This document shows positions 15,434 through 61,049 of a stretch of 64,000 bases of DNA, one piece after another. Numbering within the stretch: position 1 is the stretch's first letter; every line of letters begins with the position of its first letter. The notes under the pieces were generated by a model. That model was not told where the DNA came from, searched no databases, and worked only from the letters and a program-made list of their open reading frames with translations. A program made the position numbers and the translations under genes. The stretch is from a virus: the IMG/VR virus record IMGVR_UViG_3300050821_009835, positions 62,001-126,000 of that record, one strand, 5' to 3'.

Positions 15434-15937
15434 ATGAATGTTCAAACAACCTCTGTGCTGCGTCTTGAGAACGCACTCCTCTTAGCAACTAAAGCCCATT
15501 ACGGCCAACTCGATAAAGCCGGGCAGCCCTATATCCTGCATCCAATTGCGGTGATGGAAATGATCCGAAAAGAGTTTGCCGAACACCCCAAAAAGATTCC
15601 AGCGGGTGTGACACTAGACGATCTGCTGATCGCCGCACTACTCCACGACACAGTCGAAGACACTGAAGTTACACTTGACCAAATCGATCAAGAGTTCGGC
15701 CCGGTTGTTCGCGAAATTGTGGATGGTGTGACACGACGTCGTGACTCTTGGAAAGATCATATTGGCGACGAGAATTACATAGATTTCATTTACCGCGCCA
15801 AACGACAGCCCGGCTCGCGGATCGTCAAAACTGCCGATCTTCACCACAACATGAGTCGTATTCATAACTTGCCGCCATCAGAACAAGGCATCTTGAATCG
15901 GTATCTCCGAGCGGAAAGGATTCTGAACGATGAGTAG
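15434..15937 (+). CDS. HD-domain alarmone hydrolase (MESH1/SpoT-type)
   Basis: This 167-aa protein has the RelA/SpoT hydrolase pattern: H36 in YILHP, H71-D72 with E75-D76 in LLHDTVEDT, and D135/N139 in KTADLHHNM. Stand-alone members (small alarmone hydrolases, MESH1) remove the 3'-pyrophosphate of (p)ppGpp; some act as antitoxins to toxic small alarmone synthetases. The canonical KLADRxHN is KTADLHHN here, leaving the metal- and nucleotide-binding residues intact. The same window encodes a RelA/SpoT synthetase-like domain at 51871. The stop overlaps the next gene by eight bases. Other HD-type nucleotide hydrolysis cannot be excluded. Confidence 0.85.
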   Translation: MNVQTTSVLRLENALLLATKAHYGQLDKAGQPYILHPIAVMEMIRKEFAEHPKKIPAGVTLDDLLIAALLHDTVEDTEVTLDQIDQEFGPVVREIVDGVTRRRDSWKDHIGDENYIDFIYRAKRQPGSRIVKTADLHHNMSRIHNLPPSEQGILNRYLRAERILNDE

Positions 15938-16362: not shown

Positions 16363-17568
16363 ATGAGCACAATGACTACCCCTGTAGACCAGCGCATTGT
16401 CAACCTGAATCAGCAGCTCATTGAAGCCGCCGACGCTTATTACAAAAAAGCCTCTCCCATTATGTCTGACGTGGCATTCGACGCCAGTGAAAAAGAATTA
16501 AAACAGCTGGTTGCAGCCTACCCTCTGTATGCTTCACTTGCCACCTATCTACAGAAAGTCGGCTCTGACCTGAAGGCCGTTTCTGGTCGCACTCCTCACC
16601 GTATCCCGATGCTGAGCATCGAAAACATGTACACTGAAGAAGATTTCCTCGCTCAGTATGATCGTTTTGGTGGCGTCCCGGTTGTGATTGAACCGAAATT
16701 TGATGGCGTAAGTATTTCCATGACCTACGTGGACGGTGAACTGACCAAGGCGCTGACTCGCGGGGATGGTACCAGTGGCGAGGACATGACCGCGCAGGTT
16801 CGCTGCACCGAAATCCCCACCTCTCTGGGCAAGGTTCTTTCGAGGAGCAACGGCGAGCCCGTGAAGGTCCCCGCGCTGGTTGAAATTCGCGGCGAACTGG
16901 TCATGCACGAAACGACCTTGAAGGCTCTGAACGCCAAGTATGCCGCATCCGGCCAGAAGACCTACGCCAACACGCGCAACCTGACCGCTGGCACGATGAA
17001 GTTGAACCCGGCCAAGTATGCGGACACGATCCGCGAGCGCAAGATCACCATTCGCCCTTGGGACGTTATTGCTGACCAAGTTCCTGACAGCCGCATCGAG
17101 CGTCTCCGCATGATTAAAAATGCGGGGTTCAGCGAACCAGAAGGTATCTTGCTCACCGACCGTAGCCAAGTGATTCCGGCGCTGCGCAAGATGCTGGAAC
17201 TGAATAAAACTGCCGATATCTACCGCGACGGCGTAGTGATGAAGGTCGACAGCGTGAAAACAAGTCGCTCATTAGGACTGGCCTCCAAGTACACAAACTA
17301 TCAGACATGCTTCAAACCGCAAGGTGACAAGGGAGTTACTTATCTACGTGAAGTCGTGTGGCAAGTGGGAAGAACAGGTCGCATTTCTCCAGTGGGAATT
17401 GTAGATCCTATAGTCTTGGCTGGGGCTACTATTACTCGAGTCAATCTCAACAACATTACTTGGATTCGAGCTATGCGGATAAAGCTAGGAAGTCGGATTT
17501 CTTTGCTTCGCAGTGGGTCGGTAATTCCTGTAGTAGAACGAGTCTTGGATGACGATCCCTCAAAATGA
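16363..17568 (+). CDS. ligA: NAD-dependent DNA ligase, N-terminal part (adenylation and OB domains)
   Basis: The 401 residues cover the Ia region, adenylation domain and OB fold of bacterial-type LigA. The nucleophile lysine lies in EPKFDGVS (K112); YANTRNLTAGTMK, YRDGVVMKVDS and QVGRTGRISPVG mark later nucleotidyltransferase motifs and the OB start. It ends IPVVERVLDDDPSK then TGA, exactly where LigA normally goes on into the zinc finger. The rest (zinc finger, HhH, BRCT) is a separate gene at 18568, with an endonuclease gene in reverse between them. The two chains may associate into a working ligase. From about 16680 to 17230 codon third positions are more GC-rich than in the neighbouring genes. 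Confidence 0.9.
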   Translation: MSTMTTPVDQRIVNLNQQLIEAADAYYKKASPIMSDVAFDASEKELKQLVAAYPLYASLATYLQKVGSDLKAVSGRTPHRIPMLSIENMYTEEDFLAQYDRFGGVPVVIEPKFDGVSISMTYVDGELTKALTRGDGTSGEDMTAQVRCTEIPTSLGKVLSRSNGEPVKVPALVEIRGELVMHETTLKALNAKYAASGQKTYANTRNLTAGTMKLNPAKYADTIRERKITIRPWDVIADQVPDSRIERLRMIKNAGFSEPEGILLTDRSQVIPALRKMLELNKTADIYRDGVVMKVDSVKTSRSLGLASKYTNYQTCFKPQGDKGVTYLREVVWQVGRTGRISPVGIVDPIVLAGATITRVNLNNITWIRAMRIKLGSRISLLRSGSVIPVVERVLDDDPSK

Positions 17569-18499: not shown

Positions 18500-18555
18500 A
18501 CTAATTCCTTTGTTACAAATGGATTAGAAAGCTACCCGATTTTTGAGCATTAGTG

Positions 18556-18565
18556 GTAGTATTAC
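18556..18565 (+). promoter_or_regulatory. GTAGTATTAC element before ligase C-terminal gene
   Basis: The element ends two bases before the ATG at 18568, with no Shine-Dalgarno site. It resembles elements before other plus-strand genes and would let the detached ligase half be expressed on its own. Confidence 0.35.
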
Positions 18566-18567
18566 GA

Positions 18568-19500
18568 ATGATGACCACTACTGAAATTATCCCTCCTAAA
18601 AACTGCCCTGAATGTGGCCAAAAGTTAGATGTCTTTGAAGACAGCACAGAAGATGCAACCGAACACATTTATTGCACCAACACAGATTGCAAAGGTCGTG
18701 TGGTTGGGCATTTTTGCTTCGTGGGCGATCGCGAGGTTTTAGAGATTGACGGCCTTGGGCCGGAACTCTCAGCCAAACTAGTCACGGATGACTATGCACG
18801 AAACGTGGCTGAACTGGTAGAGTTTGCTGACGAAATTAACGATGCCATCACTAAGAATGGTGAAGGGCCAGTTACTAAATCACTCCAGAAAGAGGGTTTC
18901 ACCAGCGCCGTCGTAAAGATGGCGAAGTCGGTTCAACTGGCGAAGCATGCTTCTTGGGAGCGTTGGATTGCTGCACTGGGCATACCGATGGTTTCGGACA
19001 CGCTGGGTAAGATCATCGCAAAGGAGATGAAACTGACCGCTGATGATATGGTGAATCTAGTCAGCAAGTTCCGAGACTTTCTAAATTTGACCATCGCTGG
19101 CGTAGGACCAAGTAAGAAAGCTGCTCTACAGGATTGGCTCAAGACACCAGCTAATATCGACATCATCCAGTCTCTGGCGAAATCTGGTGTCAAGCCGACT
19201 CCGCTGGCTGCACCAAAAAACGTGAATGGACCGCTCAGGGATGTCGTTTTTTGTATCACAGGCGGGTTTCCTAACTTTGGGGAACGTACCGATATTGAAT
19301 CAAAATTATCCTCTCTCGGAGCTACCGCAAAAAGCGGAGTATCTAAAAAAACAAATCTCCTCCTTGTCGGGGAAGATGCTGGCGGCACCAAATTGAATGC
19401 CGCTAAGAAACTAGGTGTACAGCAAGTCGGAGAAGACTGGCTCCAGAGAGTCTATACTGAGCATGGTCTCCAAACTTGTGGTAATAAGTTTCCTATCTAA
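18568..19500 (+). CDS. ligA: NAD-dependent DNA ligase, C-terminal part (zinc finger, HhH, BRCT)
   Basis: The 310 residues start MMTTTEIIPPKNCPECG. The four-cysteine finger (CPECG...YCTNTDCKG) is followed by helix-hairpin-helix DNA-binding segments (EIDGLGPELSAKL, TIAGVGPSKKAAL) and a BRCT domain (DVVFCITGGFPNFGERTDIE ... GVSKKTNLLLVG ... KLGVQQVGEDWL). These are the domains missing from the gene at 16363, so the two are halves of one ligase. No catalytic residues lie here; on its own it would only bind DNA. I chose the tandem ATGs at 18568/18571 over the GTG at 18553. The stop overlaps the end of a second, convergent endonuclease gene by eight bases. Confidence 0.9.
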   Translation: MMTTTEIIPPKNCPECGQKLDVFEDSTEDATEHIYCTNTDCKGRVVGHFCFVGDREVLEIDGLGPELSAKLVTDDYARNVAELVEFADEINDAITKNGEGPVTKSLQKEGFTSAVVKMAKSVQLAKHASWERWIAALGIPMVSDTLGKIIAKEMKLTADDMVNLVSKFRDFLNLTIAGVGPSKKAALQDWLKTPANIDIIQSLAKSGVKPTPLAAPKNVNGPLRDVVFCITGGFPNFGERTDIESKLSSLGATAKSGVSKKTNLLLVGEDAGGTKLNAAKKLGVQQVGEDWLQRVYTEHGLQTCGNKFPI

Positions 19501-25616: not shown

Positions 25617-27550
25617 CAATTCATTTCTAGACCCTGAAATACATCTGAAGAAATCTCCCAGGCAAGACGTAAACGTGGGGCAACCAGCCCGTTCGGATGA
25701 TTGATATCCCAGTTACTTACTTCTCCCGTTGGAGGCAGCGGCTCCGTAATACTTGGTGTACCCGGCTGAAGCAGCATAATCCATCTATACGAAGGAATAT
25801 AGGCTTGACCAATACCAACCATCCGCCAAGTCAACGTTCCATCTGTAGTCGTGCCATTGACATTGATAGCCCAAGCTGAGACTGAAGCACTGCCGGGGTC
25901 AACTTCAAATTCCCCGTCTACATTGTTCAGCGTAATTGATTCATCAGTAGAAGCCAAACAGGAAAAGACGCCGTTGTTACCAGGATTTGTGAAACCTGTA
26001 ATCGTGAATGTTCTCCCCAGATAGGCATTGTCGCCCCCGCCTGTGATATTACCTAAATAAGTTGTGCTGCCGTTAAACTCCACTTGGCCCTGAGATGATG
26101 TCAATGTGAAATTAAGCGTAGGTGGATTCGGGGTGGAACCAGTCATACCATAGTACCCGCTGGTTCCAAACAACGATGGCGGACTATTCGAGCCTGTGCC
26201 AACGACCATCTGAGTGTTCCCATTTGAATCCATGATGATCTGGCTTTCAAAGAAATTTGTGTCAGGTGCCCAATTTGCTATTCCGAGAACATAGTCTCCG
26301 TTCAAGCCAGGTACATAGGCTGATTGTAGTGTTGGAGTTACAAGCCCAGATCCGGCTTCTGCCGCAGAAGGAACGGGAGCGGGCAATTGCACAACCATCT
26401 TAAATGTTCCCGAGTACGGCGGGTTGCCCACAGAAGGAGGATTACCTGTTCGGATCGTAGTCGTATCGCTGATCTTACCTGTGATATCGAATATGTTCCC
26501 ACCATTTACGCAGCCTGTAATAGTGACTTGCATGCCATCATGGATTGCATAATTAGCATTTGTGTACGTAAAAGTTGCTAAAGTTTCAGTTGCAACCGTG
26601 TTAACAATATTGAACGTGATTTCCGGCAAAGTTACCCATTGGGATTCTGGTATACTCATAAGCGGACCAGAGAATTGGCGTCCGTGAGCGGCAACTGTTG
26701 TTTGAGGATTCACGGGGTTCAAAATAGGAGCTACAATCAACATCGGGTTGAATGGTGGTTCTTCAACAATCCTAAAGATAATCGATAAATTGTCTGCAAT
26801 TCCTGGCTCAGTGGGAGACCACATATCCTGCGGAAAGTAACTAATGTCTTCCGTGTAGGCATCAATGTTATCGTTTTCGCCGAATACTACAATGAATTCA
26901 AGCCCCACATGGGCGGGTTTAGTCAAATCAATGGCTGTATACAATGAACTAACAACCAGCTGAAGCTGATTGAGAGACTCTATGTCTTCCAGCGGATTGC
27001 TTCCGCCCACATTGATAGAAACTTGTATTGCATTACGATCAGACTGATCGTACGGGCTGGGGGGCGGTAATAGAGTTGAGGCATCAGAAGGGATAAATTT
27101 GTAAAGCTCTTGCACAACCACTACAAGGCCAGTGTATGCAAAGATGACATCTTGAATCGCCTTGACCGTAGCACCTTCTTTGTAGGCTTGAAGTAGGGCG
27201 ACAAGCATGTTACGATAGGATAAATCAGATTGTCCGTCCGGGAGATCGAAGACCCCAGTTGAAGGATAAGCACTACTGATAAACAGCGGGTCAGCCCAGC
27301 GACGTTTAATGTCAGATGGAGTTAAATACTGAGGATTTTTAGCGATTAGATCGTAAGCATAGAAATACTCGCATCTAGCAATTTCTTGCGCTACAGCACG
27401 AAGAGCCACGCCCCATATAGATTGATCGTTCCTAGTGGCATAAAAATTGGCCGTGTTGTTGAAGAGGCGTCGAGTACTAGCATCTTCATACAATAAAAGA
27501 TCAGTTCTGTTCGGGGTGTATAAGACATCAGGTTGAACGTATTTAGTCAT
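25616..27550 (-). CDS. Large tail/baseplate structural protein
   Basis: The 644-aa product starts MTKYVQPDVLYTPNRTDLL at the ATG overlapping the GIY-YIG gene stop (TAATG). The N-terminal 230 residues (ARCEYFYAYDLI, LTPSDIKRRWADPLF, EGATVKAIQDVIFAYTG) look like the helical region of baseplate wedge-type proteins adjoining protein J. The rest is beta-rich, with Gly/Asn/Thr repeats and FTITGFTNPGNNGVFS-type strands found in tail appendages. The neighbouring J-like gene supports a baseplate or tail-fibre-connector role. A diverged copy of its first 16 codons sits upstream of the GIY-YIG gene. Confidence 0.6.
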   Translation of the reverse strand: MTKYVQPDVLYTPNRTDLLLYEDASTRRLFNNTANFYATRNDQSIWGVALRAVAQEIARCEYFYAYDLIAKNPQYLTPSDIKRRWADPLFISSAYPSTGVFDLPDGQSDLSYRNMLVALLQAYKEGATVKAIQDVIFAYTGLVVVVQELYKFIPSDASTLLPPPSPYDQSDRNAIQVSINVGGSNPLEDIESLNQLQLVVSSLYTAIDLTKPAHVGLEFIVVFGENDNIDAYTEDISYFPQDMWSPTEPGIADNLSIIFRIVEEPPFNPMLIVAPILNPVNPQTTVAAHGRQFSGPLMSIPESQWVTLPEITFNIVNTVATETLATFTYTNANYAIHDGMQVTITGCVNGGNIFDITGKISDTTTIRTGNPPSVGNPPYSGTFKMVVQLPAPVPSAAEAGSGLVTPTLQSAYVPGLNGDYVLGIANWAPDTNFFESQIIMDSNGNTQMVVGTGSNSPPSLFGTSGYYGMTGSTPNPPTLNFTLTSSQGQVEFNGSTTYLGNITGGGDNAYLGRTFTITGFTNPGNNGVFSCLASTDESITLNNVDGEFEVDPGSASVSAWAINVNGTTTDGTLTWRMVGIGQAYIPSYRWIMLLQPGTPSITEPLPPTGEVSNWDINHPNGLVAPRLRLAWEISSDVFQGLEMN

Positions 27551-28191
27551 TAGGATCTCCCCATGACCCAACCATCTGCACTGTGGCTTTCTATGTCCCC
27601 CGGTTTTATCAATAGACTGAAAATGCCATTATTGACCCATTTTCTTCCAAGAATAGGGTTTTTTCGACGACTGTTACCAAGACCGATTTTTCGTCCGTGT
27701 TCAGCAGTTTTGGGAATTCCTTTGAATCTTTTCTTGGCTATAGCAGCCCGCTCTTTTCGAAGATGAGGATTTTTAGCCCACCATTTTGTTTGTCCCTCTC
27801 TTATTTTTTGACAGAATTCTTCTGATCTTGGAATATCAGTTAAGGCAGTACGAATTTTCTGCTTGGATAATTCAGTATGGGAACGCCCCGCAAAACTGGG
27901 GATATCCTCACCTCCCATTGTTATGTTGTATCCAATCTCTCTGTCATACGACTGATGAAGAACGATAAAAAAGGTTTCCATCGCGCAGAGCTCTTTAAAA
28001 CTACCCGCTTTGTGTAATGTTTCTGTTCTAAACCCTTCTGGCCCATAAAATCGCAAGGCTTGATAAAAATAACCAGGAGTGCCAATTCGTGCGCAACATT
28101 GGTGCTCTTTCCAACGAGTCTCTTCAGATTTAGTTGTCCTGCCAATATACACCTTGCCGTTAATCACGTTTGTTATCTTATATATTAGCAT
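27550..28191 (-). CDS. GIY-YIG homing endonuclease
   Basis: The 213-aa protein opens with a GIY-YIG nuclease domain: IYKITNVINGKVYIGRTTKS, with the catalytic Arg in RWKEH, F/Y at ALRFYG and the Glu in CAMETFF (position about 74). The rest carries helical DNA-binding modules (HTELSKQKIRTALTD, EFCQKIREGQTKWW, TAEHGRKIGLGN) of the kind seen in Seg and Tev-type enzymes. AGGGGG six to seven bases before the ATG acts as ribosome site. It lies between the J-like gene and the next tail gene and probably entered as a free-standing mobile gene. Confidence 0.9.
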   Translation of the reverse strand: MLIYKITNVINGKVYIGRTTKSEETRWKEHQCCARIGTPGYFYQALRFYGPEGFRTETLHKAGSFKELCAMETFFIVLHQSYDREIGYNITMGGEDIPSFAGRSHTELSKQKIRTALTDIPRSEEFCQKIREGQTKWWAKNPHLRKERAAIAKKRFKGIPKTAEHGRKIGLGNSRRKNPILGRKWVNNGIFSLLIKPGDIESHSADGWVMGRS

Positions 28192-45923: not shown

Positions 45924-48900
45924 TTAGAAATTAAGGAGATCAGCCTGCTTCAGTGCTTTCAGAATCGCATCAGCATTCGGCGGTAGAGTAACAATTAAAG
46001 TGCCTTCGTCGTTTCCAGTCATATAGACTTTTCCATCTTTCTCTCTAAGGCGTGGGTCAAAGATGTGATAATCGTCAGCAGCATCTATCCCTTTACCTGT
46101 GCTCGGGAAGAACACATACTTGAATGTATCTACAGTAATGAAAGCCCAAGGGGATAAAGTGTCTTTCTGCCCAGTAGAGGGAATACTAATCGTTGCAACC
46201 TGCTTGGCCAAGCTGACCGGGAGATAAACTCTACCCGACTTAGACATGAAATAGAGAAACTCCTGGTCCGGATGCTCTTTCAAATAAGTACCCACCTGCT
46301 GAGCCTCTTGTTCTGCTCCCTTGCTATACCGTTTTTGAGCTTTTTCTTTTCCCACAGCAGGTAGTATCTCCATACCCGCCTGTTCAATTTCAGACAATGG
46401 CACAACTATACCGCCCGAGCTTTGATATTGGAGAGTATAGCTACCTGCAGGAAGTGTCACTACTTGAGCAGAGTAAGTTCGGCGAGTGATGCTAGACCCT
46501 GTTTGTAGAAGAACTGGAACAGGCTGAGTAATCTTTATCTTGGTGCGAGGAAGAGCGGCGTCTGGCACCTGATTTAATCTTTTTCCAATTTCATCTGTGT
46601 ATGAGACAAACGTGCTCTTCTCTTTCGAGATAGTTGGTAGAGGGAGTCCCGCATATTGTTCAGCCGTTATCTGTTCAATGTTTGGAGACCACATTAAACC
46701 GGAACCAGCCTTGTATTTGTATGGTTTCAGATCTACCCCCAATGCAGAAGCCTGTTTTTCAAATTCAGCCATCCAAGAAGGATTAGGTAACCCATAGAGT
46801 TGTAAACCCGCTAGCATACTAGATCTACGGATTTGTTGCTCATCCACAGCTGCTTTGTAGAACGAGAATGAAGCTGTTTTTCCGACCTCCTTGAACAGTT
46901 TCGGGTCCCAGAACACTTTGTGCTGATCTTTGTATTTTCCAGTGTTCACGCATTCCGTCTTACCTGGGCCTTCCGTATGGGATACAACTGTTTCTGCAAC
47001 GGGAGTACCATCAAAAGTAAAAACGAGCTTCTCCCCTGGCAAGCAGACGATGGGATGACGGAACGCCCAGAATTCTAGATTACCTTCAGGCGGTTCTTCC
47101 CAAAAATGTTCACGAGACGCCTTGGGAACTTCGATCTTGAAAGAGCGTTTCGTCATCCGCCCTGCCTTTTTAGAAGACTCCTTCGCGAGTTCCGCAGGAT
47201 CTAGATCCAACTTAAAAATCTCCACATGATCCGGCGTGAAGACTACACCCGGGATCTTCTTCCAGCTGTAACCGCCCCCGGTTTCATAGACGTTATGCGG
47301 AATGTCCACAGCATAAACTTCTTTACCGAACTCATTGTCCATGTAGACTATGACATAAGCATGATCATCACCCGGTTGTCCGCCTTCGGTCACGCTGCAC
47401 TCAATCGGGACCCGATCATAGACGACCCCGGTTATGGCCTGAGCGATCTCGTCACAGATTCCACCTGTTCCGTTCTCAGGATCCTCACCTGCTTCATTCT
47501 GGTCCCAAGCATCATAGATCTTCTGCGCTTCCGCTGCCATCTCCAGTGTAGCTTCTTGCAAGTAGTGAAGAAGCACAGTCCGGTTACGGGTGGCGGTATG
47601 CTCAAGGCATCCTCCGGACAGGCAAGCGACGCAGACCTTCGCAGCGATCCGAGAAGATGCGGCAGTCTTATGAGACAGAAACTTCTGCCACTCCACGCCA
47701 AATTCCTGAAGTGGGAGATTATCCGGCAGCTCTGTTAGCCAAAGATACAGAGCAACCGGGTCGACGTCCTTGGGCTTGATCACGTCATAGTGGTTGTCCA
47801 TGACACGAATGAGGCCGTTCTTGAGAGAAAGTCCGACGACGTTACCGAAAGTCACGCGCTGAAGTTCTCTATCAATGTCCGCGTTTGCAGTTTTGGAAGC
47901 ACTAAATTTTACAAATGCCTTATCCTGAATCTGCCTACCGTAAGCAATATCGTCCAGTATAGCACCGTCGTAACCTTGTTTCTGGAGTACCCGAACCAAC
48001 TGACTCACTTCCGTGCCGTGAAGATTGCTATCGAAAATCGAGGCAGGCGTATTCATCTCATTGTTAATGCCCAATTTAGAAGCTTCCGCTACGATGACAT
48101 CCCAAGGTGCAGGATTACTAATGGATATTTCTCCCTCGTTTAATTGCCCGCCCGTTCCGAAACGATCATTGTACATCTCAACATAGGACTCTGCCATTTC
48201 CTTGTTAGGAGTCCAATAAGTCACGGCCCCGCCTGGTTTGCTGTTGCCTCCGTTATACATCTTTGAAGCAATTTTGGACGCCAAGGTTAAGCTGTAATCC
48301 TTCTGCCCATGCGTTGCGCTGGGTGTCTCTTCAACTGGATGAGTCTTTTTCAAATCCTCCCAAATCTTTCCAGATTCTCCAATGCGATAGTTGGCTGGAC
48401 TCTCTACTTTCTTGACACCGTGTTCTTTGAGAAAGTCAAACCCCATCCTATAGAGGTAGGAGCCATATCCCTGCCGACGAAAATCGTATTCAACCCAAAC
48501 ATTATGGACAGCTGCGACAGTCCCTGGAGAATACACAATAAATTGAATCTTGCCAATGTAGACGCCCTGGAGATTTTTAGCCTCGAATGTATGGATTATT
48601 GCCCCAGACTTGACTCCAGCCTCTTTCTCAGTATGCTCAATCTGAATTTCTGAAGGATTTGCCGGCGCGGTTGCAGTTTTTCTGGTTCCAATGTATGCTT
48701 GGATGGTTTTATCACCGCGCATCTTAGCCGCATCCCGACGATGATAGCCGTCAACGACGTATTTATTGCTGCCAATAACGATTGGGGGTAGCGCGGTCTT
48801 GCGTTGCGAGTATCCCCAAGCCACTGGAGGATGTTTACCCTGCCCCCAATGGATGCTGGGATCATTAATATCTATGGTCTGAAGAACGTACTCATCTGCT

Positions 48901-51374
48901 TCAGCTATCCATTCTGGATCTTCAAATGGTTTTCGTTCCCACCCCTTTTTATGGAGAGAGTTAACATACTCGAGCATTCCATCGGGGGTTAATAAACTTG
49001 GATATCGTTCATCGTTCTCCTTAGCTCGTTTGTTTTCTTTGCGCCCCCAAATTTCGATCGGCAGATTCCTTCCGATTATCAAAGCCGCTATAGCACGATG
49101 TTGTCCATTCAAAATAACCAAACGACCATCCTTTAACCGAGAAACAGGCACAGGCGGAGGGATGCTTCCCGCTTTCCACATATCCGCGTATTCTTGAGCT
49201 TTTTGTTTACTTCCCTCTGGGTTGTTTAATTCTTCTTGCGTATAAAGTTGACTTGGGTCCATTGAAGTCGTTTCTAGAAGTGTCAAACGACCGGCCTCAA
49301 ACTCCAACAAATCGTTGAAAGATTCATCTGTCGGCTCCATGTATTTTAAAGAATCATGACCCGAATGGAAAGCTGCTTGTTTATGACTTCCAAACGGAAC
49401 CCCATTACGCGCTCCATTGGCTCGAGAGAGCACGAGAGAGCCGCAGGAGAAGGAGATACCCTGCGCCCAATCTGACCCCTCGTACTTGTGAGCAACCTCT
49501 GGCTTCACGTAAGCGATAGTTACATGGGGTTTATAGGGAAAATCATCTTTACGATTTCCTATAGCAGAATCGACCAATTCATGGAGGACATGTAAATCTG
49601 CAGCATGAGCTTCGGCAACAATAGGAACTCCTCCGGCTTCAGATGCTGTAAAAGCATGCATTTTACCCAATACGACAGAAAAATTGTGCTGCTCACCTAC
49701 AGCCCAGGCCAGTTTTTCTAGATTCTCTTCCACACCAAACTTTACCGTAATGTGAGGATCATCTTCAATCCCCTTCACATCTAGATCCTCGGCAGGTATA
49801 CGGCGGGCTACAGCGAAGACATCGTCTCGTGCTGGACCAGATAATCCGATAATCACAAGAGGCTTCTTATCCTTGCCCAAATACTTAGCCATTCTGAGGT
49901 CGTAGCCCATCCTGCTGTTGCTGAAAGCAATTCTGACATCAGGGTATTTTTCGCGCAGACGCTCAAGAACTGGACGTATCTTAGTCTCCCCTTCAGAAGA
50001 GAAGGTGGAGATTTTCAATTCATGACGACCAGAATCTTGTACAAACTTTACAGCAGCTTCGAGTAACTGGCGAGCATACCCTCGTCCTTCATAACCTTTA
50101 CGAGTCGTGATATGCATTAACCAAAACTGATCTGGATTGTTTGGGTTAGGGTAGAGTTCACAATCTGCTACAATCTTGCCATCGTCAAGGATATCAAAAT
50201 GGGGTTCCTGACGAAGATCAGAATGACGAAGATACATTGTCTCTTCCATCAAACGGTTGTCTTCTTGCTGGAATTTGCGAATCTGTTCACCCTTCATGAA
50301 AACAGGTGGAGAGGCTGCGGTTTTAGCTGCGGTTACAGTCTTTAATTTATCGGGAGGATTTTGCCAAGCACCCCCATTTTCTTTCCACCCGATAATCGAG
50401 ACTGTAGTACCCTCTATTAAACGAATTTCTGCTTCTTCAGGGGCAGCTAGATTGCAATAAGCTGTTGCCAACCAGTCAACCTGACCTGGGACAACTGTTC
50501 CTTTAAAAACTAAAGCTGCACCCCCCATAGCATTGTAAGGCTGGGCTGCATTTTCTTCCCAAGACCAAAACTTACCGAAATTATCTGGATTTATCTGATT
50601 TATGGAAGCAGAAATAGCTCGATAAACGGGTAACCGATTTGTCCTGGCGAGCTCCTTAAGATGCTCTTCAACAGGGGCATAGGAAAGTTCTAGAAACTGC
50701 TCTGCTGCAACCTCGAGTTGCTCTTCGGGTAAGTTTTGATTGATATTATTTTCCCGAAGATACTGATGAAATTCTCCAGAAGGAATTGTATCCCAAAAAC
50801 CGCCGTAATTTAAGACTTGATCAAAGCTGGGAACACCCGAGGCTGCTTTAGATTCAATCCCAAACTCCTCGGGCATCATCAATTCAAGAGGGATAAATGA
50901 TTGAGTCCCTTTCTGCTTCTCAGGCTGATTGACATATCCGTTAGTCTCTTCTACGAAAGTTTCGTCTCGTCCGGGAGTCTGTTTGTGGGTTGCGGTCTTC
51001 CTAGATTCCCGAATAGGACTTCCCATTTCCGTTTGATAGATGTTAATCCGTTTTATCAATTCTTTAGGAATTTTCTTACCGGGGTAAACCCAAGTTACAT
51101 TATCCTCTAAAAGGACTATTCCCTCCTCCAACTTAGAAGGGTCTACAACAACGATAGCAATTTCATCAACCTCAGCATATCTGGATCCCCAATGAGCAGC
51201 ATAATCTAAATCCTCAGCGAAGTAGATCCCTCCGTTTGGGACATAAAGACCGTCGCGCTTGATTTTTTCCACATTTTCCACCGGGGTGCCATGGAAAATT
51301 TCTGGGGGGAAATACTTAGCGACGACGCCTTTTGGCGCGACACTTAGCCCCGGCTTTTGCAACAAAGGATTCAT
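45924..51374 (-). CDS. Giant multi-enzyme polyvalent protein
   Basis: The 1816-aa protein (start ATG 51374, MNPLLQKPGLS) reads as a string of enzymatic modules. In order: ADP-ribosyltransferase-like (FHGTPVENV ... GGIYFAEDLDYAAHW, 27-60); a second ART-like (VYRAIS ... PEEAEIRL, 250-320); GNAT (GYEGRGYARQLL, about 430); 2H phosphoesterase-like with HITV (541) and HVTI (617); two ParB-like segments (VILNGQHRAIAAL about 755; VVDGYHRRDAAK about 875); a second GNAT (DFRRQGYGSYLY, about 965); a third ART-like (AVTYWTPNKEMAESY ... GYDGAILDD, 1050-1142); a Cys-His-Asp hydrolase-like region (GICDEIAQ C1307, DDHAYV H1338, YAVDIP D1357); then unassigned C-terminal domains. K-T-A tripeptides occur near module borders at 126, 351, 859, 899, 1161, 1236 and 1499. 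Phage polyvalent proteins of this kind are thought to enter the host with DNA. The start overlaps the JAB gene by 59 bases. Confidence 0.8.
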   Translation of the reverse strand: MNPLLQKPGLSVAPKGVVAKYFPPEIFHGTPVENVEKIKRDGLYVPNGGIYFAEDLDYAAHWGSRYAEVDEIAIVVVDPSKLEEGIVLLEDNVTWVYPGKKIPKELIKRINIYQTEMGSPIRESRKTATHKQTPGRDETFVEETNGYVNQPEKQKGTQSFIPLELMMPEEFGIESKAASGVPSFDQVLNYGGFWDTIPSGEFHQYLRENNINQNLPEEQLEVAAEQFLELSYAPVEEHLKELARTNRLPVYRAISASINQINPDNFGKFWSWEENAAQPYNAMGGAALVFKGTVVPGQVDWLATAYCNLAAPEEAEIRLIEGTTVSIIGWKENGGAWQNPPDKLKTVTAAKTAASPPVFMKGEQIRKFQQEDNRLMEETMYLRHSDLRQEPHFDILDDGKIVADCELYPNPNNPDQFWLMHITTRKGYEGRGYARQLLEAAVKFVQDSGRHELKISTFSSEGETKIRPVLERLREKYPDVRIAFSNSRMGYDLRMAKYLGKDKKPLVIIGLSGPARDDVFAVARRIPAEDLDVKGIEDDPHITVKFGVEENLEKLAWAVGEQHNFSVVLGKMHAFTASEAGGVPIVAEAHAADLHVLHELVDSAIGNRKDDFPYKPHVTIAYVKPEVAHKYEGSDWAQGISFSCGSLVLSRANGARNGVPFGSHKQAAFHSGHDSLKYMEPTDESFNDLLEFEAGRLTLLETTSMDPSQLYTQEELNNPEGSKQKAQEYADMWKAGSIPPPVPVSRLKDGRLVILNGQHRAIAALIIGRNLPIEIWGRKENKRAKENDERYPSLLTPDGMLEYVNSLHKKGWERKPFEDPEWIAEADEYVLQTIDINDPSIHWGQGKHPPVAWGYSQRKTALPPIVIGSNKYVVDGYHRRDAAKMRGDKTIQAYIGTRKTATAPANPSEIQIEHTEKEAGVKSGAIIHTFEAKNLQGVYIGKIQFIVYSPGTVAAVHNVWVEYDFRRQGYGSYLYRMGFDFLKEHGVKKVESPANYRIGESGKIWEDLKKTHPVEETPSATHGQKDYSLTLASKIASKMYNGGNSKPGGAVTYWTPNKEMAESYVEMYNDRFGTGGQLNEGEISISNPAPWDVIVAEASKLGINNEMNTPASIFDSNLHGTEVSQLVRVLQKQGYDGAILDDIAYGRQIQDKAFVKFSASKTANADIDRELQRVTFGNVVGLSLKNGLIRVMDNHYDVIKPKDVDPVALYLWLTELPDNLPLQEFGVEWQKFLSHKTAASSRIAAKVCVACLSGGCLEHTATRNRTVLLHYLQEATLEMAAEAQKIYDAWDQNEAGEDPENGTGGICDEIAQAITGVVYDRVPIECSVTEGGQPGDDHAYVIVYMDNEFGKEVYAVDIPHNVYETGGGYSWKKIPGVVFTPDHVEIFKLDLDPAELAKESSKKAGRMTKRSFKIEVPKASREHFWEEPPEGNLEFWAFRHPIVCLPGEKLVFTFDGTPVAETVVSHTEGPGKTECVNTGKYKDQHKVFWDPKLFKEVGKTASFSFYKAAVDEQQIRRSSMLAGLQLYGLPNPSWMAEFEKQASALGVDLKPYKYKAGSGLMWSPNIEQITAEQYAGLPLPTISKEKSTFVSYTDEIGKRLNQVPDAALPRTKIKITQPVPVLLQTGSSITRRTYSAQVVTLPAGSYTLQYQSSGGIVVPLSEIEQAGMEILPAVGKEKAQKRYSKGAEQEAQQVGTYLKEHPDQEFLYFMSKSGRVYLPVSLAKQVATISIPSTGQKDTLSPWAFITVDTFKYVFFPSTGKGIDAADDYHIFDPRLREKDGKVYMTGNDEGTLIVTLPPNADAILKALKQADLLNF

Positions 51375-51861
51375 AGTTCTTCTTTCGTTCAACTGCTAAT
51401 GGACGAAGGCACGGCCAATAGCTCACAACCGTCTTCCGCCTACTACCATCTTTTGGAATTTGAATAGCACAAACAGCCAAAATCGATTCTTGCGTGTTCA
51501 AACTGTCCCGGATATCGTGTTCGCTTAAAACCGCGTCGTCGCAATCGGGGTGAGTATGAATCGTCCCCAAGAACTCGAGTTTGATTCTTCGACCAGATAC
51601 AGAGTCATAGATCTCCGTGTCCTTGGCATCATCCTCATGCCGATCTAGTTCTAGGTCTTCATCAATGCAGACTACTTTACGAGTGTTGGTTTCCTTTTTA
51701 TTGATGTCGCATTTAATGAAGGCACAAATGTACACTGTGTCTCCACGGACATAACCCCATAAAGCCGAAATGGTTTCTTTGGGGGCATAACGCAACGCTC
51801 GCCGACGAAAGCGCCCTTCTTCCCTGCCGTCAACAACGACTTTCAAGAAAGGTGCGATCAT
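51316..51861 (-). CDS. JAB/MPN-type metalloprotease
   Basis: The 181-aa protein contains FLGTIHTHPDCDDAVLSEHD, a JAMM-like zinc motif with H-x-H-P, then Ser and the terminal Asp; the spacing is one residue longer than the canonical pattern. An N-terminal Glu in APKETISALWG (about 30) can supply the catalytic acid. JAB proteases remove ubiquitin-like tags or act in phage tail assembly. The C terminus is very basic (AKCRAKRRRR) and its last 59 bases overlap the polyvalent gene. Lying between the alarmone-synthetase-like gene and the polyvalent gene, it may process or accompany the injected effectors. Confidence 0.75.
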   Translation of the reverse strand: MIAPFLKVVVDGREEGRFRRRALRYAPKETISALWGYVRGDTVYICAFIKCDINKKETNTRKVVCIDEDLELDRHEDDAKDTEIYDSVSGRRIKLEFLGTIHTHPDCDDAVLSEHDIRDSLNTQESILAVCAIQIPKDGSRRKTVVSYWPCLRPLAVERKKNYESFVAKAGAKCRAKRRRR

Positions 51862-51870
51862 CTTAGTTCC

Positions 51871-53448
51871 TTAGTTTAAAATACTATTCACCATGGTCGT
51901 TACTCGACCTTCTGTTTCGCCCCGGCGCTCACATAACTTCTGCAAGCGAGTTTTCTTTGCTTTCTTGACTTTAATCTCAAAATCCTCGCTCGCTGTAAGA
52001 TGATACCGCGCTGCAGCAAGCCTACGTTTTAAATGAGCCACTACCCCTGTTTGTAACGGGCAGCCCGTGCGACGCTCAATCTCTCCTTGCAGTTCGTCAA
52101 TGCTTGATTCGCCCGCACCAACCAATGCTCCCAGCATTTCCAGAATCTGAACTTCAGCCTCAGACAACTGGCCCATGCTCGGCTTATAGCCCAAGTCATG
52201 GTTCACCTCTTGCAAAGCATGCATCAGAATGGAAGCAGCCTGAATTTCTACAACCGTGCCCTCATACCAAACAGTATAGTGGAGTGCTCGATAAATCTGA
52301 CCGTCTTCTGGATCAGCATCGCGTGGAAATTCCTTTACGGGTCTGGCCTGTTCAAAATTTGATTCAATGATCGCTCGAACCTTTTCTTGATCATGAGGGA
52401 AATACAATGCTACACGTACCCCAGCCAGGTCCTTAATGTCTTGCTGAATTGCTGCCAAATCCTCATACTGATTTTTGTTGTTACGATTCATTAGCTTATC
52501 ACGCAAACTTCTCGTACGTTTGGCACGGCTGGTGACCAGCGCCTTAATCTTGTCTGCTTGGAATATATCCTCAAGAAACTCTTGCACCTCCAAAGCCACG
52601 TGTTCGTAAAACTCGAAATCGTAACTATCGAGGAACCGCATAATGAGCTTGGGAACACTGGCAGAAGTCTTCAAAACAGTTCCTATGGAATCTGATCCTC
52701 CATCATGCTTTAACGCTTGTCTTATTCGAGAATCAAAATTAATCGGGTATTCGGTGAGTTCGTATAATTTCTGTACCATAGCGGTTAAAACTCCCGCATG
52801 TTGTAGATCTTTTGCTACTTCATATCGACCCAATCGCGTTCTTCCAGAAATAATTGTATAGGGTAACTGTCCGGCTGTTCTCCCTTCCAACAGTGCAGTC
52901 AATACTCCCGAGGTCTTGTATTCTTCTTCTGAAATGATGTAATTCGAAAAATGCAATTTACTGATAAGTTCAGGATTATAGACACCCTTCAGATGCTGAT
53001 CTGCACCCGTCTTATTCACCTGATTTTGATTCTCTGCGACAGCGTCAAAGAGATACTTGAGAGGAATCTCGTCAATGTCCCCAAGATTCTTGTCTCCCCA
53101 CATATCGGTGTAGCATTTCTCTGCGCTCAAGAGATCCGGGAAGCCAAGGAACACTTTGTATTCGTCAAATTCACCTTTATCGTCAAGTTGTTCAACAGCA
53201 TAGGCATATTCAGCCGATTCATCTTCTCCGACATACACATCCACTGGTTCTTGATCCCCGGATCCAGAAGTGGCGGGAATATATCCATAATCTGCCAACA
53301 TTTCTTTCTCCCAATGAGTTCCATCGGGTAAATCTCCCTCTCGAATTCCTCCCTTTGGGGTTTCGATGATTATCGGCAGCCCCTGGTAAGAAGACGGTCG
53401 ATTAACGTCTCCGCTTGCTCTCTTAAGGAATGTAGCAGTCAAACTCAT
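51871..53448 (-). CDS. InPase-like domain fused to RelA/SpoT-type synthetase
   Basis: In this 525-aa protein, residues 18-135 have the phage InPase-like pattern (IIIETPKGG, ADYGYIPAT, EPVDVYVGE, YKVFLGFPDLLSAEKCY) known from polyvalent proteins. Residues 300-425 match RelA/SpoT nucleotidyltransferases: basic KRTRSLRDKLM, DLAGVRVALY (D340 for Mg), YRALHYTVW, VEIQAAS (E401), MHALQEVNHDLGYK (H410, H417, Y421, K422). Such domains make (p)ppGpp or, in toxic small alarmone synthetases, (p)ppApp or pyrophosphorylated tRNA. The key residues are present, so activity is likely, but the product is open. A K-T-S-A tetrapeptide at about 260 separates the halves. A separate HD hydrolase at 15434 could neutralise it. 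Confidence 0.82.
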   Translation of the reverse strand: MSLTATFLKRASGDVNRPSSYQGLPIIIETPKGGIREGDLPDGTHWEKEMLADYGYIPATSGSGDQEPVDVYVGEDESAEYAYAVEQLDDKGEFDEYKVFLGFPDLLSAEKCYTDMWGDKNLGDIDEIPLKYLFDAVAENQNQVNKTGADQHLKGVYNPELISKLHFSNYIISEEEYKTSGVLTALLEGRTAGQLPYTIISGRTRLGRYEVAKDLQHAGVLTAMVQKLYELTEYPINFDSRIRQALKHDGGSDSIGTVLKTSASVPKLIMRFLDSYDFEFYEHVALEVQEFLEDIFQADKIKALVTSRAKRTRSLRDKLMNRNNKNQYEDLAAIQQDIKDLAGVRVALYFPHDQEKVRAIIESNFEQARPVKEFPRDADPEDGQIYRALHYTVWYEGTVVEIQAASILMHALQEVNHDLGYKPSMGQLSEAEVQILEMLGALVGAGESSIDELQGEIERRTGCPLQTGVVAHLKRRLAAARYHLTASEDFEIKVKKAKKTRLQKLCERRGETEGRVTTMVNSILN

Positions 53449-53657
53449 TGGAATCCCAATCTTACAGTAAAAATTATGAGGGGGTTTAGAAAATCCTCTC
53501 TAATTGAGTGTGCCGTATATGTTGGATCTCCGACAGAAGCGGTATTACATTCACGTCGCGAGTTTTAGAAACGATCCCGTTAGTTCGAAAATCATGGGAC
53601 TTCTAAACTAAATAGAAGCACATTTCACTCAACATGAAATGCGGAGGGAACGCTATT
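53449..53657. promoter_or_regulatory. Divergent intergenic region
   Basis: The 209 bases separate the minus-strand synthetase gene from the plus-strand A1-like gene and should contain promoters in both directions. Visible elements are GTATTAC at 53542-53548 and an inverted repeat CTTCTA-AACTAAA-TAGAAG at 53600-53618. No ORF of note. Confidence 0.4.
53643..53651 (+). promoter_or_regulatory. GGAGGGAAC site deciding the A1-like gene start
   Basis: It lies nine bases (from GGAGGG) before a TTG at 53658, while the upstream ATG at 53634 has no ribosome site. It argues for the TTG start. Confidence 0.5.
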
Positions 53658-55286
53658 TTGAGCAAAAAAGGTACGTTATCCCCAGAAATTCTTCAACCCA
53701 TTCTTGACGCCTATAACGCAAACGGCGGGAACATATCAGCAACGGCCAGAATGTGTGGTGTCAGTCGTAAAAAAGTTTATACAGCCCTCCGTCAAACGGG
53801 TGGTATCAAACGAAGTGGGCATCGTCCGACATTAGCTGCAGGAACTGTCTCTGGCGTCACTCTCGTTGTTAATCCCCTCCCGTCCAAAGACCAGATTAAG
53901 CGATACATCCTTACATCAGCCCAGAATAACACTTATGTCCATGATGATGTTTGGAAAAATATCCTTGCACTTGCAGAATACTACAACGCCGAATTGTACG
54001 TAGGCAGTTTTTCCTACGACAAAAATGCATATGGGCCTCTGGCTGTAAAAGCAGATACCTACGATGCGGGCGATCAAAAAGAACTATGGTTTGATCCGAA
54101 AATCGAAAAGCATCGCAAGGATAAACGCATTGAACTAGGCAATGGATTATGGTGGTGCGGCGAGATGAATGTTCTTCCAACTGCTAATGACCCGCTGGAA
54201 GGCTTGGAAGTCTACTCCGGGCGCAAGTCAGCAATCTTCCCCCATGCTAAAATGGCGATGCGTTCCATTGCTACAATGAAGGGTGAAGGCACCAAATTCA
54301 ATTACACCACGGGAACCGTCACCAAGAAAAATTATATTCAGAAGAAAGCCGGGCTCAAAGCCGAATTCCACCATGTTTACGGCGCTTTACTAGTCGAGGT
54401 TAACAGCAACGGCAATTGGTGGGTGCGACAATTGGAGGCCGATGGGAACGCTCGCATCCAAGATTTAGCTGTACTCGCGAATAATGGCCAGGTCACCGAG
54501 GGACATCGTATTGAAGCAATAACTTGGGGGGATATCCATGCTACGATCATTGAACCTTCAGTGATGAAACAAAGCATGGATATGCTCCGCATTCTAAGAC
54601 CAAAATACCAGTTCCTTCATGACATCATGGAAGGTGCCTCAGTTAATCACCATAATGAGAAAGATCCCTTTGAACGGCACAAAGCATACATTCGTGGGTT
54701 GGATAACATAACAACTGAAGTAACACGCACTCGAGCAGTTCTTGAAGAGTATGTTAAGAACGGCGGCCCCGATATTCAGACTCTCGTCGTCGATTCTAAT
54801 CACGATAATTGGTTCTATCGCTGGTTAAAGTCCAATGATCCCCGTAAGGGAAATCCCTGTAATGCTATCCTTTACCACGCAGGCAGTTTAGCTGCGCTGT
54901 ATGCCATTGAAAAAGAAGATAAAAAATTCAACATGACAGAATGGCTGTTTCGACGTTTCGGCGTGCCAAAACAAATCCGCTTTCTTGCTACAGATGAATC
55001 CTTCACTATCTGCAACAAGAAGATTGAGTGTGGTATGCACGGGCACCTTGGGCCTAATGGCGCAAGAGGAACTCCTCAAAATCTGTCTAAAGTGGGTCGG
55101 AAATCTATAACTGCACACACCCACAGTGCAGGTATATACGATGGAAATTATGTAGCCGGAACTAGCACTCAACTCGACATGGGCTATAATCATGGCCCTT
55201 CTAACTGGTCACACTCAGACGTACTGACTTACCCATCTGGCAAACGCTGCATTGTTACGAAATACGCTGGTAATTGGAGAGCGTAA
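53658..55286 (+). CDS. T5 A1-like metallophosphoesterase with HTH
   Basis: With the TTG start at 53658 the product is 542 aa (550 from ATG 53634). Residues 20-50 form a helix-turn-helix (NISATARMCGVSRKKVYTALR). The C-terminal half has calcineurin-type phosphoesterase motifs: TWGDIHA (about 290), DSNHDNW (about 380), MHGHLGPNGARGT (about 460) and AHTHSAG (about 487). This architecture and length match phage T5 A1, a pre-early protein needed for host DNA degradation and second-step transfer. Metal-dependent nuclease or phosphodiesterase activity on host DNA is likely. The HTH would bind DNA. Confidence 0.75.
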   Translation: MSKKGTLSPEILQPILDAYNANGGNISATARMCGVSRKKVYTALRQTGGIKRSGHRPTLAAGTVSGVTLVVNPLPSKDQIKRYILTSAQNNTYVHDDVWKNILALAEYYNAELYVGSFSYDKNAYGPLAVKADTYDAGDQKELWFDPKIEKHRKDKRIELGNGLWWCGEMNVLPTANDPLEGLEVYSGRKSAIFPHAKMAMRSIATMKGEGTKFNYTTGTVTKKNYIQKKAGLKAEFHHVYGALLVEVNSNGNWWVRQLEADGNARIQDLAVLANNGQVTEGHRIEAITWGDIHATIIEPSVMKQSMDMLRILRPKYQFLHDIMEGASVNHHNEKDPFERHKAYIRGLDNITTEVTRTRAVLEEYVKNGGPDIQTLVVDSNHDNWFYRWLKSNDPRKGNPCNAILYHAGSLAALYAIEKEDKKFNMTEWLFRRFGVPKQIRFLATDESFTICNKKIECGMHGHLGPNGARGTPQNLSKVGRKSITAHTHSAGIYDGNYVAGTSTQLDMGYNHGPSNWSHSDVLTYPSGKRCIVTKYAGNWRA

Positions 55287-58902: not shown

Positions 58903-60645
58903 TTAGCCTCCCACCGATGCTGCTGGCGTCATTCCACGATCCGCTAAGAACTTTGCAGCTAACTTTTTGATAAAACCAGATTCCACTGAAAGTTTTGTCA
59001 CGAGATCCTGATTTGGATCCCGAATACCTTCCGCTTGTTGCTTTTTAACACCTAAGATGTCGCTCATAAACGGGTCAGATCCTAATGTAGAAATCAGATA
59101 GTAAGCAGTCATCGGATCTAGTTGCCCATCCCGAGCAAACCTACCAATATTCTGCTCGTGTACCCCAGGTGACCAATCCAATTCGCCGAAGACACCTATA
59201 TGACTGACCGCTTGAAGACCGTCCAACCCAGCCCCGGCGCGGAGGGAAATGACGAAAACTTTTGATTCGCCCCGTAGGAATTTTTGTTTGCTGATTTCTT
59301 TTTCTTTCGCGTCCTCTGAACCTGTAAACAACACAGGATTGAGATTGCGGATATTCCGACTCTTGTCTCCTTTGAGCTTCTCCATCCAGATGTCATAAAC
59401 AGCTCGATGCCATCCGAAAAGAATTACAGGCTCATCATCTTGTTCTACGAGGAAACGAACAAATTCAGCTACGAAGGGAGCTTTGGCAATTCCTGTAGCT
59501 TGTCGCATCCTCATATCAAACTCACCAGATGCTTGCATGCGTTGGCCCTTGTATGCATCATGCTGTTGAAGAATGATTTTCGCCAGATTGATGGCATCGC
59601 TTTCCATCTTCATAATAACTTCTGGTGCAGCGTCAATGTAATGGGGTACAACGGTTACAGGGGGCAATTCACGACCAACTTCTTTACGAGTGCGGCGGAG
59701 CATAAGACCAGCATCGCGGGCATAAATGCCAAACGCTTTAGTATCCTTGATCTTGGGCTTCTGATCATCATATTCGCACCACTCACGTTGAAATTCAGCC
59801 CAATCTCCTAGGGAGTCGGGCAGCAATGCGTCAATAACAGAGAAGATCTCGCCCCCGTAATTGTAGATTGGCGTTGCACTGAGGCCCAGGCGAAAATTCA
59901 TCTTATTGGCTATATAAGATGCGGCGATGTATTTCTTGGTGCCGCGATGCCTCAATTCTTGACATTCATCGAAAATGACGGACTTGCAGATAGCCCCCAA
60001 TGTCTCCTGCCAGCCGTTCAATTTGTGATAATTTGTAATAACGACGTCTGGCATACGTCCGGTTATCTTGTTACATAGATCATAGGGAGTGGATTTCTTC
60101 AAAATGTGACATTCAAGATCTGTGAATTTGGCAACCTCGTCCCGCCATTGAAATGGCAGGTGGGTCAGCGTCACAACCAACGCAGGACGTGTTCGAGGGT
60201 CCGTCATACCCGCGACCCCAACAGCCGATTTTCCAAGGCCAACGTCGTCTGCGAGGAGGAGCCCCCCAGCAGCCAGCCACATTGCCGTGGCTTGCGCCTG
60301 ATATTCACGCGGCGGGAGCTTCATAGGGAACTCCTGCTCCACGCACCCCATATGGAGTATCTTTTCAACTAGCGATTCGCGCTCTGACCATTTAATCGCA
60401 CGACCGAGGAGTTCGGTCTCCGTTGTAGTATTTTCAAACTCCAAAGGATATCGTTGAATAAACCATTTCAAATCAAAAGCATTCTCAGGAGTTGCGGACA
60501 AAGTCAGGGTACTATTGCCACGAAGACCGCTGTGAGTGTGAATTTTGGCAAAGACCCGCTTTAAACGGATTGCGACATGTGGCTGGCAATCGATCTCGAA
60601 GTGTTTCTTCTTGGGATGAAAATGTATGGAGCCATAAGTCTTCAT
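58903..60645 (-). CDS. SNF2-type (SF2) helicase
   Basis: I start at ATG 60645, whose ATGA overlaps the upstream stop; a longer frame begins at 60666. The 580-aa protein has SF2 motifs: Q-like PREYQAQA, Walker A DDVGLGKS (about 137), motif Ia VVTLTHLPFQW, motif II FDECQE (DECQ instead of DEAH/DEXH), motif III GLSATPIYNYGG, then the second RecA lobe with VILFGWH, SLRAGAGLDGLQAV and motif VI NIGRFARDGQ. The first 100 residues are a separate beta-rich domain. SNF2 family proteins remodel DNA-protein complexes or translocate on duplex DNA. In phages they aid replication, recombination or takeover of host DNA. Confidence 0.88.
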   Translation of the reverse strand: MKTYGSIHFHPKKKHFEIDCQPHVAIRLKRVFAKIHTHSGLRGNSTLTLSATPENAFDLKWFIQRYPLEFENTTTETELLGRAIKWSERESLVEKILHMGCVEQEFPMKLPPREYQAQATAMWLAAGGLLLADDVGLGKSAVGVAGMTDPRTRPALVVTLTHLPFQWRDEVAKFTDLECHILKKSTPYDLCNKITGRMPDVVITNYHKLNGWQETLGAICKSVIFDECQELRHRGTKKYIAASYIANKMNFRLGLSATPIYNYGGEIFSVIDALLPDSLGDWAEFQREWCEYDDQKPKIKDTKAFGIYARDAGLMLRRTRKEVGRELPPVTVVPHYIDAAPEVIMKMESDAINLAKIILQQHDAYKGQRMQASGEFDMRMRQATGIAKAPFVAEFVRFLVEQDDEPVILFGWHRAVYDIWMEKLKGDKSRNIRNLNPVLFTGSEDAKEKEISKQKFLRGESKVFVISLRAGAGLDGLQAVSHIGVFGELDWSPGVHEQNIGRFARDGQLDPMTAYYLISTLGSDPFMSDILGVKKQQAEGIRDPNQDLVTKLSVESGFIKKLAAKFLADRGMTPAASVGG

Positions 60646-61049
60646 GGACGTCGGTAGAATCCCCATTTAGCGGCTAAATCGTTAGCTGCTTTTTCTTGTG
60701 GACGATCTTCCCAGGGTATATCTGTATCGTACTCTTTATCCTGTTTCCTAGTATGATGACCCAAGTACCCATGAGCAAATTCATGAGCAATAGTAAATTC
60801 GATTTCTTCCTGAGTTTCTAACTCTAAATCTTTAAGATTTAAGAGAATGATATCCTTATAACCACGACACGCAAAAGAAACACCATAGCAATCCGTCGCC
60901 ACCACAAGAACATTGCCATGCTTGTAACAAACCTTTCGAGGAATGCGTTTAATCACATTGACTAAGCCCTTTAAAACTTTAGGGTAGCGATCTCTATCAA
61001 AATCAGCAAGATGGTGACATTCAAACTCTTTCCAACTCATGACCTTCAT
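60642..61049 (-). CDS. ImmA/IrrE-like zinc metallopeptidase (M78)
   Basis: The 135-aa protein has the gluzincin helix FTIAHEFAHGYLGHH (H-E-x-x-H) and a downstream helix EKAANDLAAKWGF in place of the usual E-x-x-A-N-x-F-A, whose Glu is the third zinc ligand. ImmA-type peptidases cleave or inactivate repressors or other regulators; IrrE controls a stress response. A phage gene could target host repressors or its own. The start (ATG 61049) lies 13 bases after GAGGAG; an ATG nine bases later is possible. The TGA overlaps the helicase ATG. Confidence 0.75.
   Translation of the reverse strand: MKVMSWKEFECHHLADFDRDRYPKVLKGLVNVIKRIPRKVCYKHGNVLVVATDCYGVSFACRGYKDIILLNLKDLELETQEEIEFTIAHEFAHGYLGHHTRKQDKEYDTDIPWEDRPQEKAANDLAAKWGFYRRP

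Follow-up and report, generated by a model that had tools for sequence, protein, structure and literature searches.

What does a phage do with a protein that joins an InPase domain to a RelA/SpoT-type alarmone synthetase, and when in infection would such a protein act? One is encoded in the window, by which we mean the whole stretch of 64,000 nucleotides that was analysed; its features are listed in Table 1. The phage record from which the window is taken has 264,912 bases and encodes a protein that shares 50% identity with the portal protein of the Tunturiibacter phage Tunturi_5. In a Pfam-A search the fusion ORF matched InPase with 101.4 bits (cut-off 26.8, E 4.6e-29) and RelA_SpoT (PF04607) with 52 bits (cut-off 27, E 1e-13), the latter being the only RelA_SpoT match in the whole record. 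Among solved structures, the InPase part is related to a chain named 'gp19 Portal' (9b41, E 1.7e-12) and the synthetase part to GTP pyrophosphokinases. An earlier note on this DNA had described a RelA/SpoT-type synthetase with its hallmark motifs, fused to an InPase-like domain. Both descriptions stand, since both profiles score above their cut-offs, the motifs were located and the fusion recurs in other contigs. With InPase and RelA_SpoT in one phage polypeptide, the protein is by domain content a polyvalent protein. A Pfam scan with E values up to 0.1, in which InPase was listed, gave no MuF domain.

Table 1. Features of the window discussed in the text; residue numbers refer to the fusion protein
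Feature	Position in window	Strand	Details
InPase–RelA/SpoT fusion protein	51871..53448	(-)	525 aa; ORF, ATG start, Pfam, model
InPase domain PF18823	53056..53391	(-)	Residues 20-131; acidic motif D65-x-E67-x-x-D70 and D95-E-Y-K98
Linker, low confidence, perhaps disordered	52660..53001	(-)	Residues 150-263; pLDDT mostly <50
RelA/SpoT synthetase (SAS-fold) domain	52069..52656	(-)	Residues 265-460; Pfam match 307-423
JAB-domain protein	51316..51861	(-)	181 aa; 39% identity to Tunturi_5 gp271
Polyvalent protein	45924..51392	(-)	1822 aa; GNAT, 2H/LigT-like and ParB-like matches
Divergent neighbour	53634..55286	(+)	phrog_1745 ('DNA transfer protein')
HD_4 protein	15434..15937	(+)	167 aa; like small alarmone hydrolases; ~36 kb from the fusion
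DNA helicase gene	58903-60666		Near the fusion

The synthetase motifs of the window protein are RAKRTRSLRDKLMNR at 308, DLAGVR at 340, YRALHY at 386, EIQ at 401 and HDLGYK at 417. When nine fused proteins, one of them from the window, were aligned, the four basic-helix residues (R, K, K and R) proved invariant, and so did Asp340, Gly343, Arg345, Tyr386, His390, Glu401, Gln403, His417, Tyr421 and Lys422 (window numbering). As judged from this alignment, the conservation of the motifs is far above chance and reflects constraint. Classical synthetases carry Arg two places after EIQ. Ala occupies this position in the window protein and in 12 fused and four solo relatives, while Cys, Thr or Arg is found in more distant relatives, a Vibrio phage protein having Arg. 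Since Ala replaces the classical Arg, the acceptor may be unusual. The syn3 motif is S-x-H in guanosine enzymes and G-x-N in the (p)ppApp synthetase Apk2 (PMC12226406; statements from this and the other papers cited here refer to the available excerpts of their text). In the window protein syn3 lies in YRALHY and reads A-x-H, which is neither of the two; the GxN signature of the Apk2 type is missing. With A-x-H in syn3 and Ala after EIQ, the acceptor is not readable from the sequence.

An AlphaFold2 model of the fusion protein, built on 29 sequences, had pLDDT >90 over most of both domains and low confidence in the linker (residues ~150-263). The mutual placement of the two domains is not fixed by the model, given a pTM of 0.49. 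The solved structure closest to the synthetase model was SAS1/RelQ (5dec; Z 17.6, 178 residues, 2.6 Å), with SAS2/RelP (6ewz) at Z 17.0, CapRel at 11.8, an exported SAS at 11.4, Tas1 at 10.5 and a FaRel complex at 7.5. The InPase model reached Z values up to 8.2 against type I pyrophosphatases, values that common arrangements may reach as well. The structure search that the earlier note had named as a possible refutation puts the modelled segment inside the RelA/SpoT SYNTH fold. Its further suggestion, a closer resemblance to toxic small alarmone synthetases, goes against the order of the scores, in which SAS1 and SAS2 (Z ~17) rank above CapRel, Tas1 and FaRel, although kinship with the toxic enzymes is compatible with this ranking. 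RelQ/SAS1 and RelP/SAS2 are the closest solved folds and have the motif set in common with the window protein. Unlike them, the window protein has Ala for Arg after EIQ, is fused to InPase and is phage-borne, and it is 19-21% identical to them.

These comparisons bear on whether the protein is a toxSAS-like effector, one that would pyrophosphorylate the CCA ends of tRNA or make (p)ppApp and so, at infection, stop host translation or drain ATP. Such a role would be in keeping with the loss of the Arg after EIQ, with the fold that the domain has in common with CapRel and Tas1 (Z 10.5-11.8), with a match of the fusion protein to the PADLOC candidate PDC-S33 (E 4.3e-7) and with the HD_4 protein of the phage, whose best solved relative is the (p)ppApp hydrolase 7smg (E 9.2e-21); in FaRel2, moreover, the acceptor-side positive patch is reported to be smaller than in alarmone synthetases (PMC11782079). 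We nevertheless consider this role rather unlikely in view of the better fit of the SAS1 and SAS2 structures, the missing GxN signature and the gene neighbourhood, in which no antitoxin or immunity domain was recognised among the neighbours scanned (they match JAB and phrog_1745).

The window's phage carries both an alarmone synthetase domain and a hydrolase-like HD_4 gene. Small alarmone hydrolases have been described as self-resistance factors against toxic synthetases (PMC9765508), and our guess is that the HD_4 protein could be a counter-enzyme of the synthetase. We rejected HD_4 as a specific partner of the fusion. HD_4 matches were present in three of 14 fused records and in three of 16 records having an InPase ORF without the synthetase, many of these records being short; in records of at least 250 kb they were present in four of five fused (the window's phage counted) versus one of two others. 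This spread shows no specific link. Elsewhere in the window, NAD-dependent DNA ligase is encoded by two (+) strand ORFs, 16363-17568 and 18553-19500, which match profile positions 7-383 and 386-653. An opposite-strand ORF lies between the two parts, either as a sign of a split gene or as an insertion. The window also has matches to homing endonuclease families, GIY-YIG among them, at 27550-28191 (-).

The InPase–synthetase fusion was found in 14 further IMG/VR contigs. These may represent ~12 phages, since L184-L186 are equal in length and scores. A scan of IMG/VR with the synthetase alignment gave 68 loci, of which the four closest carry InPase. With the InPase alignment, the best 80 of 187 relatives included eight with a synthetase, all among the best 14, and 72 in which the synthetase was absent from the same ORF. 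Of the 26 loci that a third scan yielded, 14 had the fusion. The fused protein of L079 has additional PARP/ART-like and GNAT matches. In L014 (5791-6912) the synthetase appears, from the domain matches, to be nested between InPase halves (residues 12-53 and 283-370). Of the 12 fused loci with domain positions, L014 alone was nested, and a search with L014 returned itself and one solo relative. In the L014 model the synthetase was well modelled; the InPase halves had low confidence because InPase rows had been aligned to the synthetase.

Relatives were also sought in other collections. A search of 50,697 public phage records with the synthetase part yielded four matches with E values of 1 or lower, of which the top one had E 2e-6 and 27% identity; no record matched 80% of the whole fusion protein. 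In bacteria and archaea, searched with one genome per species, InPase was present in none of the best 80 of 180 synthetase relatives. The nearest relatives outside phages are solo bacterial RelA/SpoT-domain proteins with 37-44% identity, which measure 402-479 aa in 63 of these 80. L172 (1-2370) is a Pantoea plasmid on which a RelA/SpoT-domain protein is encoded directly after a NACHT protein; the two may form a defence pair.

We built a tree of 77 synthetase domains, with no toxSAS reference sequence among them. Left out were L078 (short domain), L062, L074, L075, L076 and L019, while L183-L186 and L189 were found later. Ten fused synthetases lay on one side of a branch with support of 85/99, which is below the tool's star, and within a supported group that also holds 13 solo proteins (97/98). 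The nearest to the window synthetase was that of L079 (55% identity). As a pattern of sequence relatedness, the tree is compatible with a single acquisition event that had a solo gene as its source.

The InPase part has its own variation. In the classical InPase acidic motif the second residue is Asp. The window protein has Glu at this middle place. The middle residue in the 72 InPase ORFs without a synthetase was Asp in 40, Glu in 24 and unfitted in eight; in 12 fused InPase ORFs it was Glu in eight, Asp in one and unfitted in three. A Pfam scan of a Leptospira phage InPase protein gave no synthetase domain.

We also compared the genes around the fusion, leaving L185 and L186 out of this comparison and of the tripeptide count in fused proteins given below. 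Each of the 12 fused loci that were tested has, after the fusion and on its strand, an ORF with a match to the window's polyvalent protein; shared domains such as GNAT may account for part of this match. The JAB gene was recognised in four of the 12 (L012, L081, L183 and L184). In L012 and L014 a divergent upstream ORF is related to the window's phrog_1745 protein, in L013 and L091 to the Tunturi_5 phosphoesterase. In Tunturi_5 itself, the InPase of gp272 is 41% identical to the window's and, as in the window, its gene has a JAB gene and the gene of a long polyvalent protein beside it, the two polyvalent proteins matching weakly (E 0.001). Gene order is alike but not identical, since the JAB gene stands before the InPase gene in Tunturi_5 and after it in the window. 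The C-terminal half of gp272 is GP88, where the window protein has the synthetase. From the comparison of Tunturi_5 with the fused loci, the InPase protein would be the constant element and the second enzyme the part that changes. A better fit than enzyme coupling is InPase as a carrier whose second enzyme can be exchanged.

The tripeptide KTA was noticed in these proteins first and counted afterwards. The count used 16 sources, namely the window, Tunturi_5 and 14 others that we picked among the closest InPase loci (L080, L082 and L088 are repeats of other rows, L085 and L089 resemble L084 and L087, and L094 onward were unused). The 16 InPase proteins contained 14 KTA versus 0-3 for other letter orders (100 shuffles: mean 2.1, maximum 7). 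From the same sources, 20 other ORFs of at least 700 aa contained 53 versus 3-10 (shuffles: mean 8.6, maximum 15), and 123 other mechanical ORFs contained 16 versus 5-13 (mean 9.9). Thirteen fused proteins had 11 KTA versus 0-4 for other letter orders, a number reached by none of 500 shuffles. Solo relatives had none in 12 viral proteins and four in 80 bacterial ones versus 5.95 expected. KTA followed the InPase match within 40 residues in seven of the 16 proteins. The window fusion protein has no KTA; its linker carries KTS at 178 and 260 and RTA at 190. The window's polyvalent protein has seven KTA versus 0.89 KT[AS] expected.

Five to eight KTA in one polyvalent-type protein were observed in the window and in the downstream ORFs of L012, L083, L087 and L093. 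In three ORFs of the 16 sources (L083 at 7264, L087 at 6478 and the window at 46880 (-)) KTA is followed by F/L-S/T-Y/F-L/Y-K-A, giving KTAGFSYLKAL-like stretches, a possible tag. In Tunturi_5 we counted [KR][TV]A in 39 of 350 annotated features, which we chose ourselves. There were four in the head maturation protease gp331 (0.43 expected), six in gp332, encoded by the gene after gp331 (0.71 expected), eight in gp348 (1.5 expected) and six in the polyvalent gp273 (1.77 expected). The major head protein had none (0.44 expected), and a non-head protein, the tRNA ligase, had three (0.54 expected).

A trimming site for the head protease, of the KTA type, would explain most of this tripeptide pattern. 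In the giant phage SPN3US, head proteins are cut after A-x-E and packed proteins are ejected into the host (PMC10052503). InPase polyvalent proteins have been called likely packaged (PMC5512222). The available part of the Tunturi_5 paper contains no mass spectrometry (PMC11924767). A head protease and a capsid gene of the window's phage were not found with Pfam or Tunturi_5 queries (one of these searches had no positive control) or among the ORFs of the stretches read. A weak capsid match (E 0.008) was not seen again on re-examination.

From the neighbours, the tripeptides and the company that InPase keeps we infer packaging and cutting, and our preferred reading, with a probability of about 0.5, is that a jumbo phage uses the protein as an effector early in infection, and that this effector makes an alarmone-like product. 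The fusion protein would be packed in the phage head, cut between its domains by the head protease at KTA-like sites and delivered into the host by injection along with the DNA. There the synthetase would take pyrophosphate from ATP and attach it to the 3'-OH of an acceptor, guanosine being likelier than adenosine or tRNA, and the resulting alarmone pulse would throttle host transcription and translation. The HD_4 hydrolase of the phage could, as a guess, end the pulse. InPase would be the older carrier module, which may have a separate activity, clearing PPi or processing a nucleotide, with the synthetase reaction independent of it.

The protein might instead be made and be active inside the infected cell without packaging, the phage thereby setting how much alarmone is present as infection proceeds. 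The DNA helicase gene close by would suit this, and the signs of packaging, the KTA enrichment included, are indirect. We regard it as doubtful, given that a gene of the polyvalent kind comes next in every fused locus tested, that KTA is enriched and that InPase is present in portal and head proteins, PHROG head proteins among them.

Pyrophosphate transfer from ATP releases AMP. The pyrophosphate is moved from ATP onto a 3'-OH (PMC12226406), so that free PPi need not arise. The coupling of transfer to pyrophosphate hydrolysis that the earlier note had raised, with InPase removing PPi or processing the synthetase product, is very improbable, even though all ten then-known members of one clade are fused and the L014 synthetase lies within InPase, for the transfer releases no PPi, the 72 of 80 InPase loci (best 80 of 187) without a synthetase in the ORF lower coupling as a reason for the fusion, and GP88 takes the place of the synthetase in Tunturi_5.

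The early-infection effector that we favor has relatives among known systems. Iyer et al. (2017; PMC5512222) listed InPase and RelA/SpoT as polyvalent domains of phages, predicted packaging and injection and proposed an alarmone-like response. In their polyvalent proteins, RelA/SpoT occurs in Spirochaetes and epsilon-proteobacterial (pro)phages and with MuF, and InPase occurs with portal, NUDIX and GNAT, the two domains being treated apart; here InPase and RelA/SpoT form one protein, in one clade, in large phages. The MuF–Apk2 prophage toxins, a tested phage-linked case with a known hydrolase counter-enzyme, are like the fusion in having a head-linked N-terminal part and an alarmone-synthetase C-terminal part (PMC12226406). 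Unlike them, the window protein has an InPase carrier, A-x-H in syn3, no MuF match and no adjacent immunity gene that was recognised. A study from 2025 that deals with exported alarmone synthetases lists Sec signals and the carriers WXG/LXG, XopAD, MuF, DUF4157 and Rhs/PAAR, and the term 'inorganic pyrophosphatase' does not occur in the available part of its text (PMC12691689). InPase, missing from this list, would as a carrier add another route of delivery. In the literature searched we found no report of a recurrent InPase–synthetase family of large phages, of the GP88 counterpart or of the nested case; the KTA motif was not met there either, its name not itself having been a search term.

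In its broadest form the scheme would be a modular, capsid-packaged cassette of large phages, in which a constant InPase carrier takes exchangeable enzymes (the synthetase, GP88 or ART plus GNAT), KTA-type cutting at a common site occurs in the head, the injected, ready-made synthetase sets off a stringent-response pulse ahead of phage gene expression and the phage's own hydrolase later clears it. We hold this generalization to be unlikely as a whole. Both product and effect are what we infer for the window protein, and their consequence can be stated simply: if the protein is injected, the virus would open infection by directly making a bacterial second messenger, before any gene expression. 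The KTA motif would offer a testable handle on the proteins that these phages trim and inject.
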